NCBI RefSeq assembly: GCF_038404985.1
Contig: NZ_JBBKBA010000001.1
Coordinates: forward strand, 1,144,001-1,208,000
Origin: Ferrovibrio sp. MS7
GTDB lineage: Bacteria; Pseudomonadota; Alphaproteobacteria; Ferrovibrionales; Ferrovibrionaceae
Reading direction: 5' to 3'
Length of the DNA stretch: 64,000 nucleotides
Shown here: positions 13,737-28,399 of the stretch, piece by piece
Layout of the letters: each line of letters starts with the position of its first letter
Position numbering within the stretch: the first letter of the stretch is position 1
Program-made: the position numbers and the translations under genes
Notes under the pieces: generated by a model
The model's database searches: none
The model's input: only the letters and a program-made list of their open reading frames with translations
What the model was told of the DNA's origin: nothing

Positions 13737-14528
13737 TCACTTGCCCTGGAAAGCCGGCTTGCGCTTGCCCTTGAAGGCGGCAATCCCTTCGGCGATGTCG
13801 TCGCTGCCGAAAGCCATGGTCTGCGCCGAGGCTTCGCTTTCCAGGAAACCTTCCAGCGGCAGGTTATAGGCGCGCTGCAGCAGGCCCTTGGCCAGGCCAT
13901 AGCTGGCGGTGGGGCCGGCGGCGAGCTGTTCGGCCAGCTTCATGGCTTCTTCCATCAGCTTGTCGGCGGCTATCACGCGCGTCACCAGGCCGATGCGCAA
14001 AGCCTCCTCGGCATCCACATCGCGGTTGGAGAACAGGATTTCCTTCGCCCGCAGCATGCCGACGGCGCGCGGCAGGGTGTAGGCAAGGCCGAGATCGGGC
14101 ACGGCGGCGATGCCGAAGAAACCGGCGCGGAACCGCGCTTCCGTGGAGGCCAGCACATAATCGCCGGTCAGCGCCAGGGCGAAGCCGGCGCCGGCGGCAG
14201 CGCCGTTCAGTGCCGTGATCACTGGCTTGCGCGCATTCAGCAGCGGCAGCAGCCAGTTGTAATTGCTGCGCATGCGGGCCTGGCTGCGGAGCGTGCCGCG
14301 CTCATCCATGGCGCGGATATCGCCGCCGGCACAGAAGGCGCGGTCGGTGCCGGTGATCAGCAGGCAGCGCACGGCATCGTCTTCCAGCAGTCCCGGCAGA
14401 TGCCGGTTCAGCCCGGCCTTGATGGTCGGCGACAGCGCATTCATGGATTTCGGCTCGTTCAGCCGCAGCACAGCCACGGCCCCATGGCGTTCCAGCACCA
14501 CGGCGTCAGTCGTTCCCGGCTCGCTCAT
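13737..14528 (-). CDS. Enoyl-CoA hydratase/isomerase-family protein, probably an isomerase
   Basis: 263 aa from the ATG preceded by GGGAGGG; an upstream in-frame start would add 15 residues but lacks a ribosome site. Crotonase oxyanion loops are present (AFCAGGDIRAMD and ALNGAAAGAGFALALTGDYV). The first catalytic Glu of hydratases is replaced by Ala (GAGFALALT) and the second by Asp (AVPDLGLAYTLPR). The Asp in VPD-G is typical of PaaG-like delta3,delta2-enoyl-CoA isomerases, so double-bond shifting rather than hydration is likely. It is divergent from the acyl-CoA ligase pair, with one of the four 17-bp palindromes in the shared promoter region. Confidence 0.82.
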   Translation of the reverse strand: MSEPGTTDAVVLERHGAVAVLRLNEPKSMNALSPTIKAGLNRHLPGLLEDDAVRCLLITGTDRAFCAGGDIRAMDERGTLRSQARMRSNYNWLLPLLNARKPVITALNGAAAGAGFALALTGDYVLASTEARFRAGFFGIAAVPDLGLAYTLPRAVGMLRAKEILFSNRDVDAEEALRIGLVTRVIAADKLMEEAMKLAEQLAAGPTASYGLAKGLLQRAYNLPLEGFLESEASAQTMAFGSDDIAEGIAAFKGKRKPAFQGK

Positions 14529-14571
14529 CGCCGCACCCTCCCCAGGGATCATATTGAACTTGCGAAGTGAC

Positions 14572-14588
14572 ATTTCATTATGCGAAAT
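14572..14588. promoter_or_regulatory. Shared 17-bp palindromic operator, site A
   Basis: ATTTCATTATGCGAAAT, in the divergent gap between the crotonase gene (start 14528) and the acyl-CoA ligase gene (start 14629). It matches sites B, C and D in sequence, spacing and position: ATTTCA-N5-YGAAAY. It is likely bound by one regulator, most simply the IclR protein at 28401-29195. Confidence 0.75.
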
Positions 14589-14628: not shown

Positions 14629-16185
14629 ATGCTGCGGCTGACCGCCTCGCTGCACCGCGCGGTGCAGATCCGGCCGGCGCATCCTGCGGTGATTTTCGGC
14701 GACAGGCGCTGGACCTGGACCCAATTCACCGACCGCGTCGCCAGGCTCGCCGCCGTGCTGCGGCAACTCGGCCTCAAGCCCGGCGACCGTGTCGCCATGC
14801 TGGCGCATTCCAGCGACCGCTACCTGGAATTCTACTACGGCACGATGTGGGCCGGCGGCGTCATCGTGCCGGTCTCGACCCGTTATGCCCTGCCCGAAAC
14901 CGCCTTCCTGCTGAACGATAGCGGCGCCGAAATCCTGCTGGTGGATGATGAATTCGCAAGCCAGGTGCCGGCCCTGAAGCCGCTGGCGCCAGGGCTGCGC
15001 CATGTCCTCTTCACTGGCGAGGGCGCGCTGCCTGACGGCTTGCTGGAGTATGAGGCGCTGCTGCGGGCCGCCAGCCCCTGCGAGGATGCCAGGCGTGGCG
15101 GCGATGATCTGGCGGTACTGTTCTATACCGGCGGCACCACCGGGCGGTCCAAGGGCGTGATGCTCAGCCACGCCAACATGCATATCAATTCCTACAACTC
15201 GATCATCCATTGCCGCTTGCGCGATGTGGTCGGCCTGCATGCCGGGCCGCTCTACCATGCCGCCGCCGGCAGCCGGGTCTTTACCAATTCCATTCTTGCC
15301 GGCACCCATGTGGTTATCCCGCGCTTCAGCGTCACGGCTTTGCTCGAAGCCCTGCACAATCACCGCATCACCATGGTCTCGATGGTGCCGACCATGCTGA
15401 CCATGGTGCTGAATGAGCCGACACTGGACCGCTACGATCTTTCGGCCCTGGAACTGATCGGCTATGGCGGCGCGCCGATGCCGCCGGCGACCTTGGAGGC
15501 GCTGATGCGCCGCCTGCCGCATGTGCGCTTCTCCCAGGCCTATGGCATGACTGAACTCTCGCCGGCCTGCACCTATCTCGATCCCCAGGATCACACGCTC
15601 GACCCGAAGGTGGCGCATCGCCTGGCGTCGGGCGGGCGCGCGGCGCTGGGCCTTGATGTCCGCATCGTCGACCCGGAGGACCGTGAAGTGCCGCGCGGCC
15701 AGATCGGCGAAATCGCCGTGGCCGGCGCCACAGTGATGCTCGGCTACTGGCGGCAGCCGGAGCTGACGGCACAGGCGATCCGCAACGGCTACATGCATAC
15801 CGGCGATCTCGGCTACATGGATGCGGACGGCTATGTCTATGTCATGGACCGGCTGAAGGACATGATCGTGTCTGGCGGCGAGAACGTCTACACGGTGGAA
15901 GTCGAGAACGCGATCCTCAAGCATCCGGCGGTGCGCGAATGCGCGGTGTTTGGCATCCCGCATGAACTCTGGGGCGAGGCGGTGCATGCCGCCGTGTCGC
16001 TGAAAGATGGTGCCAGCGCTTCCGCCGAAGACCTGATCGAGCATTGCCGGCAGCATATCGGCGGCTTCAAGATTCCGCGCAGCGTCGAATTCCGCAGCAG
16101 TTTCCCGCTTTCGGCGGCGAACAAGATTCTGAAATCCGAATTGCGCAAGCCCTTCTGGGATGGGCGCGCGCGCTCAGTCAATTAA
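14629..16185 (+). CDS. AMP-forming acyl-CoA synthetase 1 (ANL superfamily)
   Basis: 518 aa. The adenylation motifs are complete: P-loop FYTGGTTGRSKGVMLSHANM, the A5 region YGMTELSP, the A8 hinge TGDLGYMDADGYVYVMDRLKDMIVSGGENVYTVEVE, and the C-terminal catalytic Lys in SAANKILKSELRK. It activates a carboxylic acid to its CoA thioester through an acyl-AMP intermediate. GGGAGGG precedes the ATG. It is followed after 32 bases by a second ligase of the same superfamily, so the two probably activate different acids or successive intermediates. Site A lies in its promoter region. The substrate cannot be read from the sequence. Confidence 0.88.
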   Translation: MLRLTASLHRAVQIRPAHPAVIFGDRRWTWTQFTDRVARLAAVLRQLGLKPGDRVAMLAHSSDRYLEFYYGTMWAGGVIVPVSTRYALPETAFLLNDSGAEILLVDDEFASQVPALKPLAPGLRHVLFTGEGALPDGLLEYEALLRAASPCEDARRGGDDLAVLFYTGGTTGRSKGVMLSHANMHINSYNSIIHCRLRDVVGLHAGPLYHAAAGSRVFTNSILAGTHVVIPRFSVTALLEALHNHRITMVSMVPTMLTMVLNEPTLDRYDLSALELIGYGGAPMPPATLEALMRRLPHVRFSQAYGMTELSPACTYLDPQDHTLDPKVAHRLASGGRAALGLDVRIVDPEDREVPRGQIGEIAVAGATVMLGYWRQPELTAQAIRNGYMHTGDLGYMDADGYVYVMDRLKDMIVSGGENVYTVEVENAILKHPAVRECAVFGIPHELWGEAVHAAVSLKDGASASAEDLIEHCRQHIGGFKIPRSVEFRSSFPLSAANKILKSELRKPFWDGRARSVN

Positions 16186-16217: not shown

Positions 16218-17759
16218 GTGCATCAGGGCATTGTCAGCGGCAGGCAGAACCGCACCGACGCGGAAGTGGAAGCGCGGGTGCAGCGCATGGCCGGCGGCTT
16301 CAAGGCGCTGGGTATCGGACAGGGCGATTGCGTCGCCATCCTGATGCGCAACGACATTGCCTTCTTGGAAGTGACCTATGGCATCATGCGGCTGGGCGCC
16401 TATGCGGTGCCGGTCAACTGGCATTTCAAGCCCGAGGAAATCGCCTATGTGCTGCAGGATAGCGGCGCCAAGGCGTTGATCGGCCATGCCGACCTGCTGA
16501 ACAAGCTTCGCGCCCATGTGGCGCCCGATGTGTTGGCTGGCCGCCTGCTGCTCTCGGCGCCACCGCCGGAGGAAGTGGTTGCCGCCTATAAGCTGGCGCC
16601 GGCGGATTGCGCAGCACCCTCTGGTATTCTCGATCTTGAATCCTGGCTCACCACACAGCCGGTTTACGATGGCCCTAACCTGCCGGCGCCGCAGAGCATG
16701 ATCTATACGTCTGGCACCACTGGCGCGCCCAAGGGCGTGCGCCGCATGGCGCCGACGCCGGCCGAGGAAAAAGCCACCACCGCGATGCGGGCGCTGATCT
16801 ATGGCGTGAAGCCCGGCGTGCGCGCGCTGCTGCCGGGGCCGCTCTATCACTCGGCGCCCAATGCCTTCGCGGTACGCGCTGGCCGGCTCGGCGGCGTACT
16901 GGTGCTGCAATCGCGCTTCGACCCGGAGGAATTCCTGCGGCTGGTGCAGGACGAGCGCCTGGACACGGCGTTCATGGTCCCGACCATGTTCGTGCGGCTG
17001 CTCAAGCTGCCTGAAGAGACGCGGCACAAATACGATATCTCGTCGCTGAAATTCATCATCCATGCCGCCGCGCCCTGTCCGCCGGAAATGAAGACGGCGA
17101 TGATCCGCTGGTGGGGCCCGATCATCCATGAATTTTATGGCGGCACCGAAACCGGCCCGGTCAGCTTCGCCTTGCCCGAGGATGCACTGAAAAAGCCCGG
17201 CACCGTGGGCCGCGCTTCGCCGGGGGCGGAAATCCGCATTGTCGATGACCAGCTTAATGCCCTGCCGACCGGCAGCATCGGCGAAATCTATGCCCGCATC
17301 GAGGGCTATCCCGATTTCACCTACCACAACAAGCCGGAAAAGCGCGCTGAGGTCGATCTCGATGGCCTCGTCACCTGCGGCGATGTCGGCTACCTGGATG
17401 AAGATGGCTATCTGTTCATCTGCGACCGCAAGCGCGACATGGTGATTTCCGGCGGCGTGAATATCTATCCGGCCGAGATCGAGGCGGTGCTGGTTGGCCT
17501 TGAGGGGGTGCAGGATTGCGCCGTGTTCGGTATCCCGGACACGGAATTCGGCGAAAGCCTGCTGGCGGTAGTGGAGCCGCGTCCGGGCGTGACGCTGGAT
17601 ATCACCGCGCTGCGCCAGGAATTGGCGAAGCATCTGGCGGATTACAAGGTGCCGCGCCGCATCGAGATCGGCGCCAACCTGCCGCGCGAGGATTCCGGCA
17701 AGATCTTTAAGCGCCGCCTCCGCGATCCCTATTGGGAAGCGGCCGGCCGGAAGATTTGA
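16218..17759 (+). CDS. AMP-forming acyl-CoA synthetase 2 (ANL superfamily)
   Basis: 513 aa from a GTG with GGGAG upstream. Motifs are IYTSGTTGAPKGVRR (P-loop), EFYGGTETGPVSF, GDVGYLDEDGYLFICDRKRDMVISGGVNIYPAEIE and the C-terminal LPREDSGKIFKRRLRD with the catalytic Lys. The N-terminus begins within the first adenylation helix (VEARVQRMAGGFKALGIGQGD) and lacks the usual 20-30 residues before it, a short form also seen in some bile-acid and steroid-type CoA ligases. It is co-directional with synthetase 1 and almost certainly in the same operon. It is followed by a dispersed palindrome and a strong bidirectional terminator. Confidence 0.87.
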   Translation: MHQGIVSGRQNRTDAEVEARVQRMAGGFKALGIGQGDCVAILMRNDIAFLEVTYGIMRLGAYAVPVNWHFKPEEIAYVLQDSGAKALIGHADLLNKLRAHVAPDVLAGRLLLSAPPPEEVVAAYKLAPADCAAPSGILDLESWLTTQPVYDGPNLPAPQSMIYTSGTTGAPKGVRRMAPTPAEEKATTAMRALIYGVKPGVRALLPGPLYHSAPNAFAVRAGRLGGVLVLQSRFDPEEFLRLVQDERLDTAFMVPTMFVRLLKLPEETRHKYDISSLKFIIHAAAPCPPEMKTAMIRWWGPIIHEFYGGTETGPVSFALPEDALKKPGTVGRASPGAEIRIVDDQLNALPTGSIGEIYARIEGYPDFTYHNKPEKRAEVDLDGLVTCGDVGYLDEDGYLFICDRKRDMVISGGVNIYPAEIEAVLVGLEGVQDCAVFGIPDTEFGESLLAVVEPRPGVTLDITALRQELAKHLADYKVPRRIEIGANLPREDSGKIFKRRLRDPYWEAAGRKI

Positions 17760-17908: not shown

Positions 17909-19114
17909 TCAGCCGTCGTAGCGGCCGACAATCGAGATCGAGCAGACATTCTGGTGCGGGAAGCCGCCCAGGTTATGCGTCAGGCCGAGGCGCGGCACCT
18001 GCTTGCGCTGGCGTTCGCCGGCGCGGCCCAGCATCTGCAGATACATCTCGTAGATCATGCGCAGGCCCGAGGCGCCGATCGGGTGGCCGAAGCATTTCAG
18101 GCCGCCATCGATCTGGCAGGGGATGCTGCCATCAGCGTCATAGAAGCCGTCCAGCACGTCGCGGATGGCAGTGCCTTCCGCCGAGATATGAAGGTCTTCC
18201 ATGGTCACCAACTCGGTGATCGAGAAGCAGTCATGCACCTCGATCAGGCTGATCTCGTCGCGCGGCTTCTCGATGCCGGCTTCCTGGTAGGCGCGCTTGG
18301 CGGCGATGCGGGTGGTGGCGAAATAGCTGCCATCCCAGGAATTATGCTGCGCTTCCTGGCCGTTGGAGACCGAAAGCTGCAGCGCCTTCACGGTGATCAG
18401 GTCGGTCTTGCCCAAGCTGCGGGCGATTTCCGGCGTGGTGACGATGGCGCAGGCGGCGCCGTCCGACACGCCGCAGCAATCGAACAGGCCGAGCGGCTCG
18501 GCGATCATGGGCGCGTTGAGCACGGTATCCAGCGTGATCTTGTTGCGCAGATGCGCCTTCGGATTCTTGGCGCCGTTGTCGTGGCTCTTGACCGAGATAT
18601 GCGCCATGGCGCGCTTCAGATCTTCGGGCGAGGAGCCATGCTTGGCGCGGTAGGCGGCGGCGAGTTGGGCGAAGCTGCCGGGCGCCGAGAGATTCGGCCA
18701 GGTCTGGTTGTTCAGTGTGCCACGGGTGCGCTGCGGCAGACCGCCATAGCCGGTATCCTTCAGCTTCTCGACACCGAGCGCGAGCGCGATATCGGCGGCG
18801 CCCGAGGCGACAGCATAGACCGCGCCGCGGAAAGCTTCGGTGCCAGAGGCGCAGAAGTTTTCCACCCGCGTCACCGGGATGAAGGGCAGGCGCAGGCCAA
18901 CAGCCAGCGGCACGGCGGACTTGCCGACATGCTGTTCCTCGATAGCGGTGCCGAGCCAGGCGGCATCGATCTGCTTGGTCTCGATGCCGGAATCCTGCAA
19001 AGCCTCGGCATAGGCCTCGACCATCAGGTCATGTGCCTCCATGTCCCAGCGCTCGCCGAACTTCGAGCAACCCATACCCAGAATGGCGACCTTGTCGCGA
19101 ATACCCTTCGGCAT
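17909..19114 (-). CDS. Thiolase-family protein, SCP2/acetyl-CoA acetyltransferase type
   Basis: 401 aa. The nucleophilic cysteine is Cys88 in RVENFCASGTEAFRGAVYAVASG. The C-terminal half has EVHDCFSITELVTMEDL and GGLKCFGHPIGASGLRMIYEMYLQML, the His- and GHP-G-G loops of the SCP2-type thiolases. Such proteins cleave 3-oxoacyl-CoA, or act as retro-aldolases when paired with a DUF35 partner, as in steroid side-chain degradation (Ltp2/ChsH2 systems). Here its start lies two bases after the stop of an HMG-CoA-synthase-like/DUF35 fusion, so a complex of the two is likely (inference). It is the last gene of an SDR, fusion, thiolase operon ending at a strong terminator. Confidence 0.88.
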   Translation of the reverse strand: MPKGIRDKVAILGMGCSKFGERWDMEAHDLMVEAYAEALQDSGIETKQIDAAWLGTAIEEQHVGKSAVPLAVGLRLPFIPVTRVENFCASGTEAFRGAVYAVASGAADIALALGVEKLKDTGYGGLPQRTRGTLNNQTWPNLSAPGSFAQLAAAYRAKHGSSPEDLKRAMAHISVKSHDNGAKNPKAHLRNKITLDTVLNAPMIAEPLGLFDCCGVSDGAACAIVTTPEIARSLGKTDLITVKALQLSVSNGQEAQHNSWDGSYFATTRIAAKRAYQEAGIEKPRDEISLIEVHDCFSITELVTMEDLHISAEGTAIRDVLDGFYDADGSIPCQIDGGLKCFGHPIGASGLRMIYEMYLQMLGRAGERQRKQVPRLGLTHNLGGFPHQNVCSISIVGRYDG

Positions 19115-19116
19115 GA

Positions 19117-20568
19117 TTAACTCCCCTGCGCTGCTGCGGTGGGTGCAGCTTTCCAGAAATAGCGGCGGAAGCCGCGTTGCTGATCGATATCCTTGATGCG
19201 GAACATCATCTGCATCGACTGGCCGACGGCAAGCGCGTTGGCATCGATGTCGGTGAAATCCATCATCCAGCGGCCGCCTTCATCGAACTGGATCATGCCG
19301 TAGCAGGCTGGCGGATCCGGCGAGTAGGTGAGGCGGTCGGCGGTATAGGAGTTGATGCGGCCGATCTTGTCGGCGAAGGCATGTGGCTGCTGGCTGTCGA
19401 TGGCGTTGCAATTCGGATTGACGCAGATGCGGCTGATCGGGAATTGCAGCGTGCCGCAGCGTTTGCATTCGCCGCCCATGAAGCTGGTCAGCGCGGCGCG
19501 GTTGCGCCACAGCGAAGAGAGCGGCGTTTCCTTATCCACCTCGGCACGCTTGCCGCGATCCAGTTCCATATTGTCGTTGAAGGCGAGGAACTTGGTGTAG
19601 TTGGTCTCCGGCTGGCGGCGGGCCAGATGGCCCTTCACGCCGAGTCGCGCCGGCAGCTTGGGCAGCGCCGGCGTCACCTGGAACAGCAACGCATCGGCGC
19701 CCTGGCCGAAGCCCACCACCAGGATCAGGTCGCCGGGCTTGGCCTCCTCGAAGGCGGCTGCCAGCATCAGCAAAGGATGCGCCGTGCCGGTTTCGCCGCA
19801 CACGCTATGCAAATTGTCGCGCACGGCGGCATCGGCAATGCCGGCCGCCTTGGCCATGGCATTGGCGAGTTTCGGCAGCACGGCCGGCATGCAGAAATGC
19901 GTCACCTCGGCGGCAGACTTGCCGGCCTGCTCCAGGCAGCGCTTGATCACCGGCGGCACGATCCGGGCATAGCCGGCATCGCGGATCCAGCGTTCTTCCC
20001 AGCCGTAATCGCCGTCCGAATCGGCGCTGCGGAAGTGATCGACGAAATCCGCCGAGCGGGTGGCGGCGCCGAGCAGCAGGGCGATGGGGTCGCCCTCGCC
20101 GATCAGCAGAGCGGCGGCGCCGTCGCCAGACGACATCTCCACCGGGCCGGCCGGCTTGGCTTCGCGCTTCTCGGCGCCGACGATCAGCACGTCCTCGCGG
20201 CCCTGCAAAGCTTGCAGCAAGGCCGTGGTGGCGGCGCGCTGGGTGCCGGAGACATCCTGCGAGCCGATTTCCTCGCCCAGATTCAGTGCCTCGGCGACCA
20301 GGCTGGCATTGAGGCGGTCGAGGAAGGGAAAGGTGGTGGAGGCGAAGCGCAGTGACTTCACGCTGGCACGGCTGCGGCCCTTCAGGGCGTCGCGGCCGGC
20401 TTCCACCGCCATGGTCACCGGGTCTTCATCCCAGTTGCAGATGGCGCGCTCGCCCTTGGCCTGGGATTTCAGTGCCGGATTGAACCAGCTATTGGCATCG
20501 GCGATGGATTTCCGCGCCAGCCGCAGCCGGGGGATATAGGCGCCGAAACTGAGAATACCGTAACTCAT
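19117..20568 (-). CDS. HMG-CoA-synthase-like protein fused to a DUF35 zinc-ribbon/OB-fold domain
   Basis: 483 aa. Residues 1 to about 300 have the 3-hydroxy-3-methylglutaryl-CoA synthase/KAS III fold (SYGILSFGAYIPRLRL at the start, then SSGDGAAALLIGEGDPIA). Residues 350-475 are a DUF35 module: a zinc ribbon with Cys368, Cys371, Cys382 and Cys387, then the OB fold (RINSYTADRLTYSPDPPACYGMIQFDEGGRWMMDFTD). By eye, the catalytic Cys, His and Asn of the family align with Gln110, Cys226 and Glu259, so ordinary Claisen condensation looks impossible. In archaea DUF35 ties thiolase to HMG-CoA synthase; here the synthase and DUF35 parts are fused and a thiolase follows. A scaffold or an altered CoA enzyme is plausible. 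Function is not established. Confidence 0.8.
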   Translation of the reverse strand: MSYGILSFGAYIPRLRLARKSIADANSWFNPALKSQAKGERAICNWDEDPVTMAVEAGRDALKGRSRASVKSLRFASTTFPFLDRLNASLVAEALNLGEEIGSQDVSGTQRAATTALLQALQGREDVLIVGAEKREAKPAGPVEMSSGDGAAALLIGEGDPIALLLGAATRSADFVDHFRSADSDGDYGWEERWIRDAGYARIVPPVIKRCLEQAGKSAAEVTHFCMPAVLPKLANAMAKAAGIADAAVRDNLHSVCGETGTAHPLLMLAAAFEEAKPGDLILVVGFGQGADALLFQVTPALPKLPARLGVKGHLARRQPETNYTKFLAFNDNMELDRGKRAEVDKETPLSSLWRNRAALTSFMGGECKRCGTLQFPISRICVNPNCNAIDSQQPHAFADKIGRINSYTADRLTYSPDPPACYGMIQFDEGGRWMMDFTDIDANALAVGQSMQMMFRIKDIDQQRGFRRYFWKAAPTAAAQGS

Positions 20569-20585: not shown

Positions 20586-21506
20586 TCAGATCGGGTCCCA
20601 GGAGAAGATGTCGGCGGAACGGTCCAGCGGATAGAACGAGCTTTTCAGCGCCGGAATGCCGTGGTCGCGCAGGCTGTCGCAAGTCCAGCCTTCGCTGCGG
20701 TGGATCGAGCGGATGGGCCGCGACTGGCTCATCAGGAAAATCTCGTTCATGCGCACGGAGAAGATCTGGCCAGTCACGTCCTTGGCGCCGTCACCCAGCA
20801 GGAACACGCTCAACGGCGCGATCTTTTCCGGGCCCATCGCCTTCATGCGGTCGACGCGCTTCTTCTCGGCTTCCGTGTTGGTCGGGATTTCGCCGATCAG
20901 GCGACTCCAGGCGAACGGCGACACGCAGTTGGAACGCACGTTGAAACGCTGCATGTCCAACGCGATCGACTTCGACAGGCCGACAATGCCGAGCTTGGCG
21001 GCGGCATAATTGGCTTGGCCGAAATTGCCCACCAGGCCCGAGGTGGAGGTGAAATGCACAAAGCTGCCGCTATTCTGCTCGCGGAACAGCCGTGCCGCCG
21101 CATGGGACATATAGAAGCTGCCCATGAGGTGCACTTTGATCACGATCTCGAAATCCGCCACGCTCATCTTGTGGAAGATCGAGTCGCGCAGGATGCCGGC
21201 ATTGTTCACCACGCCATCGAGGCGGCCATACTTGTCCAGCGCGGTCTTGATGATGTTGTTGGCGGTGGCCGGTTCGGCCACGCTGTCGAAATTGGCAATC
21301 GCCTCGCCGCCCTTGGCCTTGATCTCGTCCACCACCTGCTGCGCCGGTTCCTGGCTGGCGCCGCTGCCGTCACCGCCGCCGCCGAGATCGTTCACCACCA
21401 CGCGACCGCCTTCGGCCGCCGCCAGCAGCGCAATTTCGCGCCCGATGCCGCGCCCCGCGCCGGTGACAATTACCACCTTGCCGTCGAGGGCCCCGTTCCC
21501 GCTCAT
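20586..21506 (-). CDS. SDR, MFE-2-like (3R)-hydroxyacyl-CoA dehydrogenase
   Basis: 306 aa. Classical SDR features: cofactor loop GAGRGIGREIALLAAAEGG, NDLGGGGDGSG, which is characteristic of the peroxisomal multifunctional enzyme type 2 (17beta-HSD4) dehydrogenase domain, NNAGILRD, and the Ser-Tyr-Lys active site in TSTSGLVGNFGQANYAAAKLG. It probably oxidises a (3R)-3-hydroxyacyl-CoA with NAD. The C-terminal 60 residues extend past the SDR fold. It is the first gene of the operon running to the thiolase, and it is divergent from the acyl-CoA dehydrogenase with site B between. Its hydratase partner would be the MaoC protein at 22848. Confidence 0.85.
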   Translation of the reverse strand: MSGNGALDGKVVIVTGAGRGIGREIALLAAAEGGRVVVNDLGGGGDGSGASQEPAQQVVDEIKAKGGEAIANFDSVAEPATANNIIKTALDKYGRLDGVVNNAGILRDSIFHKMSVADFEIVIKVHLMGSFYMSHAAARLFREQNSGSFVHFTSTSGLVGNFGQANYAAAKLGIVGLSKSIALDMQRFNVRSNCVSPFAWSRLIGEIPTNTEAEKKRVDRMKAMGPEKIAPLSVFLLGDGAKDVTGQIFSVRMNEIFLMSQSRPIRSIHRSEGWTCDSLRDHGIPALKSSFYPLDRSADIFSWDPI

Positions 21507-21665: not shown

Positions 21666-22820
21666 ATGGCCGCCGCCGCAGCCCTGTCCGACCTGCCTGC
21701 CTATACCGAGGAGCATGAACTGTTCCGCAGCACCGTGCGCAAGTTCATTGCCGCCGAGGTGGCGCCGCATCATGCGCGCTGGGAGGAACAGGGCGTGGTG
21801 GACCGCAGTGTTTGGCAGAAAGCGGCGGAATACGGCCTGCTGCTGACCAATATCCCGACCGAGTATGGCGGCGGCGGCGCCGATTTCCTTACCAGTGCCA
21901 TCATGGTGGAGGAGATGGCGCGCGGCATCTTCTCCGGCCCCGGTTTCCGGCTGCATTCCGATATCGTCGCGCCCTATATCCTGCATCACGGCTCCGAGGC
22001 GCAGAAGCAGAAGTGGCTGCCGCGTATGGCCCGGGCGGAAACCATCACCGCTATCGCCATGACCGAGCCAGGCGCCGGCAGCGACCTGCAGGGCATCCGC
22101 ACCACCGCCGTGCGCGATGGCGACCATTTCATTATCAACGGCCAGAAGACCTTCATCACCAATGGTCAGCTCGCCGACCTGATCATTGTTGCCTGCAAGA
22201 CCGATGCGGCGGCCGGCGCCAAGGGCATCAGCCTGATCCTGGTGGAAGCCAGCACGCCGGGCTTCAGCCGTGGCCGCAACCTGGAAAAGGTCGGCATGAA
22301 GGCGCAGGACACCTCGGAATTGTTCTTCCAGGATGTGCGCGTGCCGGTGAGCAATGTGCTGGGCCAGGAAGGGCGCGGCTTCGCGCTGCTGATGACCGAA
22401 TTGCCGCAGGAACGCCTGCTGGTCGGTATCACCGCCGTCGGCGTCATGGAAGCAGCCTATGAGATGACGCTGAACTACACCCGCGAGCGCAAGGCTTTCG
22501 GCAAGCCGTTGGCGGATTTCCAGAACAGCCGCTTCCGCCTGGCGGAAGTGAAGACGGAAGTGCATGTAGCGCGCACCTTCCTCAACGACTGCGTCGCCAA
22601 GCATATGCGCGGCGAACTCGATGTGCCCACAGCCGCGATGTGCAAATGGTGGCTCTCGGAGTTGGAAAACCGTGTCGTCGATACCTGCGTGCAGCTCCAT
22701 GGCGGCTACGGCTATATGTGGGAATACCCCATTGCCCGCGCCTTCGCCGATGCCCGCGTGCACCGCATCTATGCCGGCTCGAACGAGATCATGCGCGAGA
22801 TCATCGGGCGGTCACTCTAA
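21666..22820 (+). CDS. Acyl-CoA dehydrogenase
   Basis: 384 aa. The start is the ATG preceded by AAGGAGACC; reading upstream would cross the promoter and is rejected. FAD/substrate signatures are AIAMTEPGAGSDLQGIRTTA and RKAFGKPLADFQNSRFRLAEVKTEV, then QLHGGYGYMWEYPIARAFADARVHRIYAGSNEIMREII. The catalytic base Glu is placed in the last motif (YAGSNEIMRE), as in most short- and medium-chain acyl-CoA dehydrogenases. It makes the 2-enoyl-CoA that the following MaoC hydratase would use. The 27-base gap to that gene indicates an operon; site B is in the promoter region. Confidence 0.92.
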   Translation: MAAAAALSDLPAYTEEHELFRSTVRKFIAAEVAPHHARWEEQGVVDRSVWQKAAEYGLLLTNIPTEYGGGGADFLTSAIMVEEMARGIFSGPGFRLHSDIVAPYILHHGSEAQKQKWLPRMARAETITAIAMTEPGAGSDLQGIRTTAVRDGDHFIINGQKTFITNGQLADLIIVACKTDAAAGAKGISLILVEASTPGFSRGRNLEKVGMKAQDTSELFFQDVRVPVSNVLGQEGRGFALLMTELPQERLLVGITAVGVMEAAYEMTLNYTRERKAFGKPLADFQNSRFRLAEVKTEVHVARTFLNDCVAKHMRGELDVPTAAMCKWWLSELENRVVDTCVQLHGGYGYMWEYPIARAFADARVHRIYAGSNEIMREIIGRSL

Positions 22821-22847: not shown

Positions 22848-23723
22848 ATGGCGATCGAGTATCAGAAGCTGAAAAATTGGAAATTCGCCGATCTGGAGCA
22901 CACCTACACCACCCGCGACACCATTCTCTATGCGCTGGGCCTTGGGTGTGGCGCCGATCCGATGGACCTCGACGACCTGCGCTATGTCTATGAGGAAGGC
23001 GATGGCCTGCTGGCATTGCCGAGCATGGCCGTCACGCTCGGCTATCCCGGTTTCTGGCTGAAAGACCCCAATACCGGCGTTGACTGGCGCATGGTGCTGC
23101 ATGGCGAGCAGGGCATCGTGCTACACAAGCCGCTGCCGGTGGCCGGCACGGTGATCGGCAAGAGCCGCGTCACCGAAATCGTCGACAAGGGGCCGGGCAA
23201 GGGCGCGCTGCTGTTCTCCGAGCGCGACGTGATCGACAAGCAGAGCGGTGACCTGCTCTGCACGCTCACCTCCACCACCTTCATTCGCGGCGAGGGTGGC
23301 TTCGGCGGCCCGGCCGGCCTGAATGGCGGCCCCGTTCCGGCGCCGCATCCGATCCCGGAACGCGCGCCGGATGAGACCGTGGATATTCCCACCCTGCCGC
23401 AGGCGGCGCTGATTTACCGGCTTTCTGGCGATTACAATCCGCTGCATGCCGATCCGCGCATCGCTCAAGCGGTCGGCTTCAAGATGCCGATCCTGCATGG
23501 CCTGTGCAGCTATGGCATCGCCACGCGTGCGCTGGTGCGCGCCTGCTGCGGCAACGAGCCGGCCAAGCTCAAGACCATGCAGCTCCGCTTCACCGCGCCG
23601 GTCTATCCGGGCGAAACCATCCGCACCGAAATCTGGCGCGAGGCCGAGGGCGTGTCGTTTCGCGCCCGCGTGATCGAGCGTGACCTGGTGGTGCTGAACA
23701 ACGGCAAGGCGACGTTCCTGTAG
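22848..23723 (+). CDS. Double-hotdog MaoC-family (R)-specific enoyl-CoA hydratase
   Basis: 291 aa, two hotdog halves as in eukaryotic hydratase 2 of MFE-2. The C-terminal half holds the hydratase-2 motif: YRLSGDYNPLHADPRIAQAVGF with the catalytic Asp and His, followed by PILHGLCSYG. The N-terminal half (EYQKLKNWKFADLEHTYTTRDTILYALGLGCG) is the degenerate half that binds the acyl chain in such enzymes, giving room for bulky substrates. It would hydrate the trans-2-enoyl-CoA to the (3R)-alcohol, which the SDR at 20586 could oxidise. Together these two reproduce a split MFE-2. Confidence 0.88.
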   Translation: MAIEYQKLKNWKFADLEHTYTTRDTILYALGLGCGADPMDLDDLRYVYEEGDGLLALPSMAVTLGYPGFWLKDPNTGVDWRMVLHGEQGIVLHKPLPVAGTVIGKSRVTEIVDKGPGKGALLFSERDVIDKQSGDLLCTLTSTTFIRGEGGFGGPAGLNGGPVPAPHPIPERAPDETVDIPTLPQAALIYRLSGDYNPLHADPRIAQAVGFKMPILHGLCSYGIATRALVRACCGNEPAKLKTMQLRFTAPVYPGETIRTEIWREAEGVSFRARVIERDLVVLNNGKATFL

Positions 23724-23854: not shown

Positions 23855-25120
23855 ATGGGTCTGCGCAGGATTGCGGGCAGCAAGGCTGTCATTAATCGTC
23901 GTCAATTCGGCCTTGGTGCTGCGGCACTCGGCTTCGCCATGCCCTATATCCGCCCCAGCTACGCCCAGGGCGCCACCATCCGCGTCGGTGTGATCAACTC
24001 GATGAGCGGCAACCTCGCCGCTTACGCGCAGGAAGGCCATCCCGCCTTCCTCTACGTCATCAACAAGATAAACGCCTCTGGCGGCATCAAGAGCATGGGC
24101 GGTGCCAAGATCGAACTGGTGGTGGCCGATGACACCAGCCAGCCGGCGCGCACCGCCGCCGAGGCCCGCCGCCTGATCACGGAAGAGAAGGTGGCCTTCC
24201 TCACCGGCACGATTCTTTCGGCGCAGATGCTGGCGATCACGCCGGTGCTGGATGAATTGAAGATGCCGACGCTGTCGGTCTGGGCCGGCGGTTCCAAGTC
24301 GCCCTACATGTATTCGCTGGGCTATCCCTATGATCGCGGCTATGCCCAGTCGATGCATGATTTCGTTGTCTGGCTGCGCGACAAGCAGGGCTACAAGCTC
24401 AAGACCGTGGCGCCGGCCTATTCCAACTACGAAGCCGGCCAGCAGGTGAACAACTTCCTGGTCGACAAGCTGAAAAAGAGCGGCTTCGAGATCATCGGCG
24501 AGGCGCCGCTGGATACCAAGGCGCAGGATCAGACGGCGGCGATGATCCGCATCCGCTCGCTCAAGCCCGATCTCGTCACCGGCCTGGTGACGCCGCGCGA
24601 CGGCATCCTGATGCATCAGGCGCGTTTCAACGTGAATTACCATGGCAGCCTGTTCGTCGGCGGCACCGGTGGCTACACCGACATGTCGCTGTGGCGCGAC
24701 CTGGGGCCGGAAATCGGCAAGTCGGTGCTGACCCGCAACCTGTTCGGCATGACCGGTTTTTCCGCCGGCGCCAAGATGGAATCGATGCAGAAGATCATCG
24801 CCGAGCTGCGCGACAACGCCAAGCTCAGCATCATCGGCCAGGGCGCGATCCAGGCGGCGCAGGCCGCACGCATCGTGCAGCGCACGCTGGAAGGGGCGGG
24901 TTCGGCTGATCCGGTGGCGATCCACAAGGCGCTGGCAGCGGTGAAATTCCCCAGCGGCGACCCGGACCTCTATGTCGCCAAGCCGCAGGGCCTGGCCTTC
25001 GCCGAGGACCGCCTGCCGGCCGATGGTTCGGCCATGTTCATCCAGTGGCTGGAGAATCAGGGCCAGGAAGTGGTGTTCCCGAGCGAATTCGCGCAAGTGA
25101 AGCCGCGGGCGCGCACCTAA
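23855..25120 (+). CDS. HAAT-type ABC transporter, periplasmic substrate-binding protein 1
   Basis: 421 aa. Twin-arginine signal (NRRQFGLGAAALGFAMP, about residues 18-35, cleavage near SYAQG). The mature protein is a type 1 periplasmic ligand-binding fold: IRVGVINSMSGNLAAYAQEGHPAFLYVINKINASGGI, then VVADDTSQPARTAAEARRLITEEKVAFLTGT. It captures a small acid in the periplasm for the LivHM-type permease encoded downstream. Within a beta-oxidation island the ligand is more likely an aliphatic, aromatic or terpenoid acid than an amino acid (inference). GGGAGAG lies before the ATG; the next gene starts 3 bases after its stop. Confidence 0.9.
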   Translation: MGLRRIAGSKAVINRRQFGLGAAALGFAMPYIRPSYAQGATIRVGVINSMSGNLAAYAQEGHPAFLYVINKINASGGIKSMGGAKIELVVADDTSQPARTAAEARRLITEEKVAFLTGTILSAQMLAITPVLDELKMPTLSVWAGGSKSPYMYSLGYPYDRGYAQSMHDFVVWLRDKQGYKLKTVAPAYSNYEAGQQVNNFLVDKLKKSGFEIIGEAPLDTKAQDQTAAMIRIRSLKPDLVTGLVTPRDGILMHQARFNVNYHGSLFVGGTGGYTDMSLWRDLGPEIGKSVLTRNLFGMTGFSAGAKMESMQKIIAELRDNAKLSIIGQGAIQAAQAARIVQRTLEGAGSADPVAIHKALAAVKFPSGDPDLYVAKPQGLAFAEDRLPADGSAMFIQWLENQGQEVVFPSEFAQVKPRART

Positions 25121-25123
25121 CCC

Positions 25124-25843
25124 ATGGCGCTTCTCGAAGTCGATGCCGTCACCAAACGCTTCGGTGGTTTGGTGGCGGTGAACGCAGTCAGTTTCAAGGT
25201 CGAAACCGGCGACATTCTCGGCATCATCGGGCCGAATGGCGCCGGCAAGACCACGCTGTTTGCCTTGATTTCCGGCTTCCTGCCCATCGATAGCGGCGAA
25301 GTCCGTTTCGAGGGCCAGCGCATCAACGGCGTGCCGCCGCATCATCTGGTGCGGCGTGGCCTGGTGCGCAGCTTCCAGATCGTGCAGACCTTCGCCGACA
25401 TGACCACTCTGGACGTGGTCGCCACCGCCGCCCTGGTGCGCCGGCCTTTGCGCGAGGCCATTGATTTTGCCGCCCACACGCTCAAGCGTGTTGGCCTCGG
25501 CGGCAAGGAATTGCTCACCCCGGCTTCGCTTTCGCTGCAGGACAAGAAGCTTTTGGAAGTGGCGAAATGCGTCGCCACCGAGCCGCGCTTCATTCTGCTG
25601 GATGAAGTGATGGCTGGCCTCACCATGGCCGAGACCGAGGCGCCGATCGCCGCTATCCGCGACCTGCATGCCCAGGGCGCCACCATCGTCATGGTAGAGC
25701 ATGTCATGCCGGTGATCATGCGGCTGGCGACGAAAATGGTGGTGATCAACTTCGGCGAAAAGATCGCGGAAGGCACGCCAGCCGAGATCATCGAGGACCA
25801 GCGCGTCAAGGACGCTTATTTCGGCGAGCATCTCGATGCTTGA
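25124..25843 (+). CDS. livG: HAAT ABC transporter ATPase, LivG type
   Basis: 239 aa. Walker A GPNGAGKTT, the LivG-type extended signature LSLQDKKLLEVAKCVATEP in place of LSGGQ, Walker B FILLDEVMAGLTMAET (DEV instead of DEP, as commonly seen in this subgroup) and the H-loop VEHVM. It powers transport through LivHM. The end overlaps the start of livF by 8 bases, so the two ATPases are translationally coupled. Confidence 0.9.
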   Translation: MALLEVDAVTKRFGGLVAVNAVSFKVETGDILGIIGPNGAGKTTLFALISGFLPIDSGEVRFEGQRINGVPPHHLVRRGLVRSFQIVQTFADMTTLDVVATAALVRRPLREAIDFAAHTLKRVGLGGKELLTPASLSLQDKKLLEVAKCVATEPRFILLDEVMAGLTMAETEAPIAAIRDLHAQGATIVMVEHVMPVIMRLATKMVVINFGEKIAEGTPAEIIEDQRVKDAYFGEHLDA

Positions 25844-26540
25844 ACTGCGCTCCATCACCGCCGGCTATGACGGCGTCGACGTGCTGCATGACGTGTCGAT
25901 CACCGTGCAGCCGGGTGAGATCGTCGGCCTGCTCGGCGCCAACAATGCCGGCAAGTCGACCCTGATCAACTGTGTTTCCGGCATTGTGCCGGCCAGCAAG
26001 GGCCAAATCCTGTTCGAGGGCCGCGACATCACCGCCATGCCGGCGAAGCAGCGCGTCGCCGCCGGCATCGTGCAGGTGCCGGAAGGCCGCCTGGTCTTCC
26101 CGGAAATGAGCGTACGCGAGAACCTGCTGCTTGGTGGCCTCAATCCCACCGCCAAGCCGCATCGTCCGGCGGAACTTGAGCGCGTGCTGGAAATGCTGCC
26201 GCGCCTCAAAGAACGCATGAGCCAGGATGCCGGCACGCTTTCCGGCGGCGAGCAGCAGATGCTGGCCATCGGGCGTGGTCTGATGGCGCGCGGGCGGCTC
26301 TTGATGCTGGACGAGCCATCGCTCGGCCTGGCGCCGCTGTTCGTGCAGTACATTTTCGAGATCATCGACCAGTTGAAGGCCGCCGGCATGACAATCCTGC
26401 TGGTGGAACAAAATCTCAATCTGACGCTGAAGCATGCCGACCGCTGCTATGTACTGGAACGCGGCCGGATCGCGGTGGAAGGCGTGGCCGATGCGGTGCG
26501 CGACGATCCGCGCACCCGGCGCGCCTATCTCGGGCTCTAG
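25836..26540 (+). CDS. livF: HAAT ABC transporter ATPase, LivF type
   Basis: 234 aa. Walker A sequence GANNAGKST (Asn in place of the usual Gly after GAN), signature LSGGEQQMLAIGRGL, Walker B LLMLDEPSLGLAPLF, and LVEQNLNLTL with the Gln that LivF proteins carry at the H-loop. EGRLVFPEMSVRENLLLGG is typical of LivF. It pairs with LivG as the second nucleotide-binding domain. It overlaps livG at its start and is nine bases before livH. Confidence 0.9.
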   Translation: MLELRSITAGYDGVDVLHDVSITVQPGEIVGLLGANNAGKSTLINCVSGIVPASKGQILFEGRDITAMPAKQRVAAGIVQVPEGRLVFPEMSVRENLLLGGLNPTAKPHRPAELERVLEMLPRLKERMSQDAGTLSGGEQQMLAIGRGLMARGRLLMLDEPSLGLAPLFVQYIFEIIDQLKAAGMTILLVEQNLNLTLKHADRCYVLERGRIAVEGVADAVRDDPRTRRAYLGL

Positions 26541-26549
26541 GAGGAAGCG

Positions 26550-27413
26550 ATGGAAGAACTCCTGCAAGCCCTCAGCCAAGGTCTGCTGATCGGCTCCACC
26601 TATGGCCTGCTGGCGCTCGGCATGGGCCTGGTCTATGGCGTTAGCGGCATCGTCAATTTCTCCCATGGCGATTTCGTCTCGCTCGGCATGTTCCTCTGCC
26701 TCGCGGTCTATTCGCTCACTGGCATGGACCCGTATCTCGCCATGCTGATTGGCGTGCCGGTGCTCACAGCCCTTGGCGGTCTGGCCTATCATTTCCTGAT
26801 CCGGCCGGTGGCAGGGCATCATCTCCTGATGGTGATTCAGCTCACGCTCGGCCTGTCGCTGCTGCTGCAGAACGGCCTGCTGATGGGCTTCGGCGGCCAG
26901 CCGGTGCGCGTGCCCTCCATGGTGGAATCGAAGCTGGTGATTGCCGGCGACGTGATCATGCGGCTGCCGCATATCATCGCCTGCCTGTCGTCCTTCGCGC
27001 TGGCTATCCTGCTTTACGTCATGCTGCGGGCCACCGATATCGGCCGCTCGATCCGCGCCGTGCACCAGAATCCGCGTGCCGCAGCCCTGATGGGCATTGA
27101 TGTGCCGCGCGTGCGGCTGTTCACCTTCGCGCTCGGCATCGGCATCCTGGCCATAGCTGCCGCTTTGCTGATCCCCGGCACGCCAATCCATCCCAACCAG
27201 GGCCTGCGCTACACGGTAATCACCTTGCTAGCCGTGGTGCTCGGCGGCATGACCAATTTCGTCGGCATCATGCTCGGCGGTATCGTCATCGGCACGGCGG
27301 AAGCCATGGGCACGATCTACCTCTCGCACACGCTCGGCATGCTGCTGCCCTACATCATTTTTGTGCTGATCATGCTGTTCCGGCCGCAAGGCCTCACCTG
27401 GAAAACCCGCTAG
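26550..27413 (+). CDS. livH: HAAT ABC transporter permease, LivH type
   Basis: 287 aa with about eight hydrophobic helices. The LivH landmarks are GLLIGSTYGLLALGMGLVYGVSGIVNFSHGDFVSLGMF at the start, AVHQNPRAAALMGIDVPRVRLFTFALGIGILAIAAAL (the EAA-like loop contacting the ATPase) and LAVVLGGMTNFVGIMLGGIVIGTAEA near the end. It forms the membrane channel with LivM. AGGAAG precedes the ATG. Confidence 0.9.
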   Translation: MEELLQALSQGLLIGSTYGLLALGMGLVYGVSGIVNFSHGDFVSLGMFLCLAVYSLTGMDPYLAMLIGVPVLTALGGLAYHFLIRPVAGHHLLMVIQLTLGLSLLLQNGLLMGFGGQPVRVPSMVESKLVIAGDVIMRLPHIIACLSSFALAILLYVMLRATDIGRSIRAVHQNPRAAALMGIDVPRVRLFTFALGIGILAIAAALLIPGTPIHPNQGLRYTVITLLAVVLGGMTNFVGIMLGGIVIGTAEAMGTIYLSHTLGMLLPYIIFVLIMLFRPQGLTWKTR

Positions 27414-27424
27414 GAGAGGCGACG

Positions 27425-28399
27425 ATGCGTCCGGAATTCTTCACCACGATCAAGAATCCCTGGCTCTGGCTGGCGCTGGCGGCCACCGCCACCCTGCCGC
27501 TCATGCTGCCGAGCTATTACCTGCATATCCTGACCCTGACGCTGGTCTACATGGCGCTGGCCTCGGCCTGGAATGTGGTCGGCGGCATTGCCGGGCAGAT
27601 TTCGCTGGCCCATAGCCTGTTCGTCGGCTGCGGCGCCATGCTGGCCAGTGCCTTGCTGCTGAAACTCGGTATCAATATGTGGTTCGGCATGCTGATTTCG
27701 GCGGCGGTTGCCGCTGTGCTGGCAGCAGCCATCGCCTGGGTCGATTTTCGCTTCCGCCTCGGCCATCTCTCGTTTGCGCTGATCACCCTGGCTTTTGCCG
27801 AGATGGCCGAGATCGTGGTGATCGGCAGCGATTTCCTCGGCGCCGCGTCCGGCCTGTTCCTGCCCAAGGATAACGGCAATTTTCTCAATTTCGAATTCGG
27901 CGGTGGCAAGGGTGCCTTCTGGATGATGCTGGCGCTGGCCGTCATCTGCATTCTGGTCAACCTGGCGATCCTGAATTCGCCGCTCGGCTATTACCTGCGC
28001 ACGGTGCGCGACAACGAGAATGCCGCCCAGGCCATCGGCGTCGCCCTGCTGCGCAACAAGACCCTGGCGATGGTGATTTCCGCCGTGCTGACCTCGCTGG
28101 TCGGCACCGTCTATGCCCGCTATCTCACCTTCGCCGATCCGTATCAGCTGGTTTCGCCGGTGATCACCATTGAAATCGTGCTGTTCGCCACGGTGGGCGG
28201 GCTGGGCCGCGCCTTCGGGCCGGCGCTCGGCGCGCTGCTGCTGGTGCCGCTCGGCGAAGTACTGCGCGGCAAGCTCGGCGGCGTGCTGCCGGGACTGCAT
28301 TACTTCATCTATGGCGCGGTGGTGATCGGCGTCATCCTGGCCTCGCCGCGTGGCCTGCTGCCGCTGATCGAGCGGCTATTCAAGCGCAAGCCGGCTTAA
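27425..28399 (+). CDS. livM: HAAT ABC transporter permease, LivM type
   Basis: 324 aa. Features: LTLVYMALASAWNVVGGIAGQISLAHSLFVGCGAMLAS (LivM usually has QvSLGHaaF here), LRTVRDNENAAQAIGVALLRNKTLAMVISAVLTSLVGTVYA as the cytoplasmic coupling loop, and EIVLFATVGGLGRAFGPALGALLLVPLGEVLR. It completes the five-gene importer K-G-F-H-M. Its stop is one base from the stop of the convergent IclR gene, leaving no room for a terminator between them. Confidence 0.9.
   Translation: MRPEFFTTIKNPWLWLALAATATLPLMLPSYYLHILTLTLVYMALASAWNVVGGIAGQISLAHSLFVGCGAMLASALLLKLGINMWFGMLISAAVAAVLAAAIAWVDFRFRLGHLSFALITLAFAEMAEIVVIGSDFLGAASGLFLPKDNGNFLNFEFGGGKGAFWMMLALAVICILVNLAILNSPLGYYLRTVRDNENAAQAIGVALLRNKTLAMVISAVLTSLVGTVYARYLTFADPYQLVSPVITIEIVLFATVGGLGRAFGPALGALLLVPLGEVLRGKLGGVLPGLHYFIYGAVVIGVILASPRGLLPLIERLFKRKPA

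Follow-up and report, generated by a model that had tools for sequence, protein, structure and literature searches.

What does a protein that joins an HMG-CoA-synthase-like (HMGCS-like) domain to a DUF35 domain do beside a thiolase gene, among genes for beta-oxidation? We analyzed such a gene in Ferrovibrio sp. MS7, within a 64,000-nucleotide stretch of its genome (hereafter, the window). The gene is an intact open reading frame of 483 codons on the minus strand (19117-20568). It has 253 relatives in genome contigs, the best of which are 78-79% identical over the full length, and is the only copy recovered when the whole source genome was searched with its product. In Pfam, the 483-aa protein matched ACP_syn_III_C and both ChsH2/DUF35 halves, namely zf-ChsH2 with a Cys4 zinc ribbon and OB_ChsH2_C with an OB fold; the latter scored 30.4 bits, above its cut-off, in the genome-wide search, and 26.3 against 27.1 in another search. 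The models for HMG-CoA synthase itself, NF003274 (archaeal-type; E=9.5e-43, 146.5 bits against a curated cut-off of 244) and TIGR00748 (91.5 against 353 bits), were matched below their thresholds. In the PDB, the closest sequences were PhlA (9skh, 2e-23; 5m3k, 1e-22) and the archaeal HMGCS 6esq_I (2e-17), and a profile built from 55 relatives gave the same ranking (1e-45, 3e-44 and 1.5e-35).

The AlphaFold2 model (pLDDT 86, pTM 0.90, with lower confidence at residues ~171-200) adopts the HMGCS fold, superposing on 6esq_I with a Z score of 44.9 (rmsd 1.9 over 330 residues) and on PhlA 9skh with a Z score of 43.5; the structures that match best belong to subunits of solved thiolase/DUF35 complexes. 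The model and the fold matches place the thiolase-fold, HMGCS-like domain at residues ~1-300 (19669-20568, minus strand). Domain and PDB matches place the DUF35 domain at residues ~351-478 (19135-19518, minus strand), and the C-terminus from ~350 to 478 matches 6esq_E, the DUF35 subunit of the archaeal complex, and PhlB. The zinc-ribbon cysteines, Cys368, 371, 382 and 387 (19408-19467, minus strand), are invariant in 111 aligned family sequences. The fusion proposed in the preliminary description is thus confirmed.

We assigned the catalytic positions by multiple alignment of the query family with rows for 6esq_I, PhlA and FabH. The position of the nucleophilic Cys is occupied by Gln110 (20239-20241), that of the catalytic His by Cys226 (19891-19893) and that of the Asn by Glu259 (19792-19794), all on the minus strand, as an earlier by-eye alignment had proposed. 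HMGCS chemistry also requires a Glu (Glu82 in 6ESQ) (PMC6392133), and alignment with 6esq_I and PhlA puts Thr79 (20332-20334, minus strand) in its place, so that four ancestral catalytic positions have been lost in the fusion protein, not three. Not one of the 111 family sequences has Cys at 110, His at 226 or Asn at 259; the residues found there are Gln (81), Leu (23), Met (6) or Arg (1) at the first, Ile (55), Cys (35), Val (19) or Ala (2) at the second, and Asp (71), Glu (37) or His (3) at the third. The FabH rows, which represent KAS III, retain Cys, His and Asn, all three of which the query family lacks; beyond these rows, the normal residues occurred only in distant canonical HMG-CoA synthases (L154 and L155).

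Within the family, the replacements interchange polar and aliphatic side chains, and the three positions are merely averagely conserved, 0.46-0.63 of HMGCS-domain sites being less variable. Because Leu or Met as a nucleophile and Ile or Val as a base would be unable to do the chemistry, the old active site appears dead throughout the family. On sequence grounds, the HMGCS domain of the fusion is most likely a pseudoenzyme without HMGCS or KAS chemistry, and would be inactive in vitro. A family member encoded on Novosphingobium pentaromativorans plasmid pLA3 (L151:7989-9434) has Asn at 259 but neither Cys at 110 nor His at 226, which may reflect either partial retention of the ancestral state or a reversion.

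The start codon of the neighboring thiolase gene (17909-19114, minus strand) lies two bases past the stop codon of the fusion gene (TAA, 19119-19117), as first described. Its 401-aa product matched the PRK06157 equivalog with 703 bits against a cut-off of 403 and is similar to BbsB and to the archaeal thiolase in 6ESQ. It carries the marks of the SCP2/archaeal-type thiolases, a nucleophilic Cys (Cys88), an HDCF motif (294-297) and the His of a GHP motif (His344); these and Cys213-Cys214 are essentially invariant among 99 aligned sequences. The two genes stay together: of 110 loci, 109 have a thiolase gene next to that of the fusion, and in the exception the contig ends ~120 bases downstream. 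Of the two proteins, the thiolase shows the higher conservation in 97 of 98 loci (mean identity to the window proteins 78% versus 57% for the fusion). All seven DUF35 genes of the source genome adjoin a Thiolase_C_1 gene; this 4.6-Mb genome is thus rich in DUF35-associated thiolases, with seven of them to one HMGCS-DUF35 fusion.

Such an architecture is known from solved complexes. The archaeal acetoacetyl-CoA thiolase/DUF35/HMG-CoA synthase complex (6ESQ) has the same three folds, with a Cys/HDCF thiolase and DUF35 in between, and the analogy drawn with it in the preliminary description was the right one; 6esq_I is the best fold match. As summarized in PMC12329534, DUF35 holds thiolase and HMGCS tightly together in this complex, and one CoA site is common to both. 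The 6ESQ synthase is active, with Glu82 and Cys114, whereas the present protein has other residues at all four catalytic positions and carries DUF35 as a fused domain. PhlA, the solved protein most closely related to the query and likewise catalytically dead, went unmentioned in the preliminary description. In the PhlACB, CsATase and MucABC acyltransferases (PDB 5M3K, 9SKH and 9VBO), an HMGCS-fold subunit without the catalytic Cys, a DUF35 protein and a thiolase-fold protein are encoded together, as they are here. PhlA has Gly, Gln and Asp at the aligned catalytic positions, sharing the acidic residue at the Asn position. It lacks the Cys and the Glu, and acyl transfer uses residues of PhlC only; activity requires expression of the whole operon, and a continuous cavity connects PhlA, PhlB and PhlC (PMC6392133). 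PhlACB differs from the present pair in that its DUF35 protein is separate and its thiolase-fold subunit lacks the HDCF motif, which is complete here, and such systems serve phloroglucinol or peptide biosynthesis instead of standing among beta-oxidation genes. The benzoylsuccinyl-CoA thiolase BbsAB (7PXP) and the Shy-Sal and ChsH2-Ltp2 pairs also combine a thiolase-fold enzyme with a DUF35 partner, but have no subunit of the HMGCS fold, and the catalytic residues of the aldolases Sal and Ltp2 differ from those of the partner thiolase. The locus represents a catabolic variant of the architecture known from PhlACB and 6ESQ.

The reading that we favor, with a probability of roughly 0.77, is that the fusion protein is a catalytically dead HMGCS-DUF35 subunit that assembles with a degradative thiolase and shapes its pocket. 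The data show the loss of catalytic residues throughout the family, the intact thiolase site, the near-universal adjacency and the fold; the physical complex, the cavity, thiolysis and the substrate are what we infer. The HMGCS domain would have kept its fold and, having lost Cys, His, Asn and Glu, would perform no HMGCS or KAS chemistry. The fused DUF35 domain would dock the protein onto the neighboring thiolase, giving a thiolase/DUF35/HMGCS-fold complex such as those of 6ESQ or PhlACB, except that DUF35 and the dead subunit would form one covalent chain. By analogy with these two complexes, the dead domain most likely stabilizes the thiolase and lines a common CoA/acyl cavity, extending the substrate and CoA pocket. 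The thiolase, through Cys88, His294/Cys296 and His344, would then cleave 3-oxoacyl-CoA. Among the roles suggested earlier for the protein, a new type of decarboxylase, a lyase or a scaffold within beta-oxidation, that of scaffold is the best supported, and the other two found no support.

The decarboxylase proposal rested on a resemblance of Gln110 to the KSQ domains of polyketide synthases, with Gln in place of Cys decarboxylating a malonyl-type thioester. Of the 111 sequences, 81 do have Gln as the residue aligned with the nucleophile, and the PDB holds a FabH C112Q structure (9ka5). KSQ decarboxylase domains need a conserved Gln and a retained catalytic His. In this family, however, 30 sequences with an unchanged gene arrangement have Leu, Met or Arg instead of Gln, the His is present in 0 of 111, and the annotated neighbors of the members examined include no carrier-protein gene. 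We therefore rejected the analogy; judged from the alignment, Gln110 does not correspond to the catalytic Gln of KSQ domains, and a decarboxylase of this kind is very improbable. The variability of the replacements, together with the absence of Cys, His and Asn, favors a pseudoenzyme instead. A lyase like Ltp2-ChsH2, also suggested earlier, would make the thiolase and the fusion a retro-aldolase resembling Ltp2 or Sal, or else a Phl-like C-acyltransferase, in place of a thiolase. The complex architecture is the same, SDR and MaoC genes lie nearby, and aldolases too use DUF35 partners (PMC12329534). The partner nevertheless has the thiolase set of Cys88, HDCF and GHP where Sal and Ltp2 have YDCY or YDHF (PMC12329534), with HDCF in all 99 aligned thiolases, and this motif is absent from two aligned Phl/Muc-like thiolases; we consider either activity quite unlikely.

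The HMGCS domain might instead have re-invented an active site, with the acidic residue at 259, His264 and the segment DYxWEERWIRD as its parts, and carry out a second step (hydrolysis, decarboxylation or a lyase reaction) on the substrate or product of the thiolase. Conservation speaks for such a site: His264, Trp190, Glu191, Glu192, Arg193, Trp194 and Arg196 are invariant in the 111 sequences, and residue 259 is acidic in 108 of them. Against it, wider relatives that share the gene arrangement have Gly, Gln or Met in place of His264. Archaeal HMGCS (GGRF) and PhlA (DRYIR) also carry the Arg-aromatic core of WEERW, so that this segment looks ancestral, and we rejected it as a new active site. 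A second step of this kind is unlikely. In a related possibility, to which we give slightly more credence while still considering it doubtful, the dead pocket has turned into a dedicated binding or catalytic chamber formed by the same elements (acidic 259, His264 and WEERW), which passes a bulky 3-oxoacyl-CoA on to the thiolase or subjects it to a second, new reaction; if so, the pair would be a widespread, uncharacterized two-site thiolase of pollutant and steroid degradation.

The neighboring genes point to beta-oxidation. On the minus strand, an SDR gene (20586-21506; a probable 3-hydroxyacyl-CoA dehydrogenase by family matches), 17 bases upstream of the fusion gene, is followed by the fusion and then the thiolase. 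On the plus strand lie a divergent acyl-CoA dehydrogenase gene (21666-22820; assigned from the open reading frame, with the start codon chosen by reading), similar genes to which occur in other loci of the family, an MFE-2-type MaoC enoyl-CoA hydratase gene (22848-23723; PF22622 and PF01575) and two acyl-CoA ligase genes (14629-16185 and 16218-17759; family matches). The CoA ligases, acyl-CoA dehydrogenase, MaoC hydratase, SDR and thiolase constitute a complete MFE-2-type beta-oxidation set, the round of which the thiolase would close. Judging by the stereochemistry of MFE-2-type families, this round probably runs via (R)-3-hydroxyacyl-CoA. Among the relatives, SDR and MaoC genes recurrently adjoin the fusion-thiolase pair. 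The window also encodes a further enoyl-CoA hydratase (13737-14573, minus strand; family match) and, from open reading frames by reading, a probable branched-chain-amino-acid-type ABC importer consisting of a binding protein, two ATPases and two permeases (23855-28399, plus strand). On a Streptomyces cathayae plasmid (L160:1-9263), genes for an ABC importer, the fusion, a thiolase, an SDR and an AMP-binding protein stand together in a layout like that of the window.

The arrangement of a fused, dead HMGCS beside an intact HDCF thiolase extends to Rhodococcus, Streptomyces, haloarchaea and plasmids of sphingomonads, and two further loci (L152 and L153) have the trio unfused. HDCF, GHP and Cys88 are kept in all the partner thiolases aligned from Rhodococcus, Streptomyces, haloarchaea and Novosphingobium sp. 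ES2-1, and their HMGCS partners are dead. In ES2-1, the fusion (L162:4001-5404; 29% identity to the query) and its thiolase adjoin VOC and indolepyruvate ferredoxin oxidoreductase genes, which is the layout of the estrogen edc cluster. In that cluster, the 'HMG-CoA synthase' homologue EGO55_13555 lies between a thiolase and a 3-hydroxyacyl-CoA dehydrogenase; its role was left unexplained, an anabolic enzyme making no sense in a degradation cluster, and the authors suggested that the protein itself might act as a thiolase (PMC7793797). With the ES2-1 gene taken as its counterpart by gene order, not sequence comparison, our results suggest that the edc 'HMG-CoA synthase' is a non-catalytic partner of the neighboring thiolase.

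Genes of this family are annotated as 'HMG-CoA synthase', '3-oxoacyl-ACP synthase III' or 'OB-fold protein', and our literature searches found no paper characterizing the HMGCS-DUF35 fusion family. Reading them as dead thiolase partners removes a false reaction from pathway models and would explain 'HMG-CoA synthase' genes inside degradation clusters. It predicts a heteromeric thiolase complex in catabolic clusters of Alpha- and Betaproteobacteria, Actinobacteria and haloarchaea, and thiolase assays that omit the partner protein may fail.

In a tree of HMGCS domains, the catabolic dead forms grouped together (85/60), apart from a PhlA/Muc group that lies nearer archaeal HMGCS (91/86); PhlA was not joined with the query family, and the branches are long. 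A single loss common to PhlA and the query family is unsupported by this tree, in which long branches make either conclusion unsafe; the catalytic residues may have been lost once or more often, as such branches allow both. Plasmids of Lactiplantibacillus (L164:3983-6762) and Priestia (L165:4001-6779) carry PhlA-like/thiolase/zinc-ribbon trios as well, in each case upstream of genes for non-ribosomal peptide synthetases, and the Priestia trio looks Phl-like (FSGKSGTSAL). Two relatives, one in a genome of the same genus (G203; L156:4527-5999) and one at L163:3980-5410, have lost the zinc-ribbon cysteines of DUF35 and kept the pairing with the thiolase; this subclade seems able to do without the zinc site.
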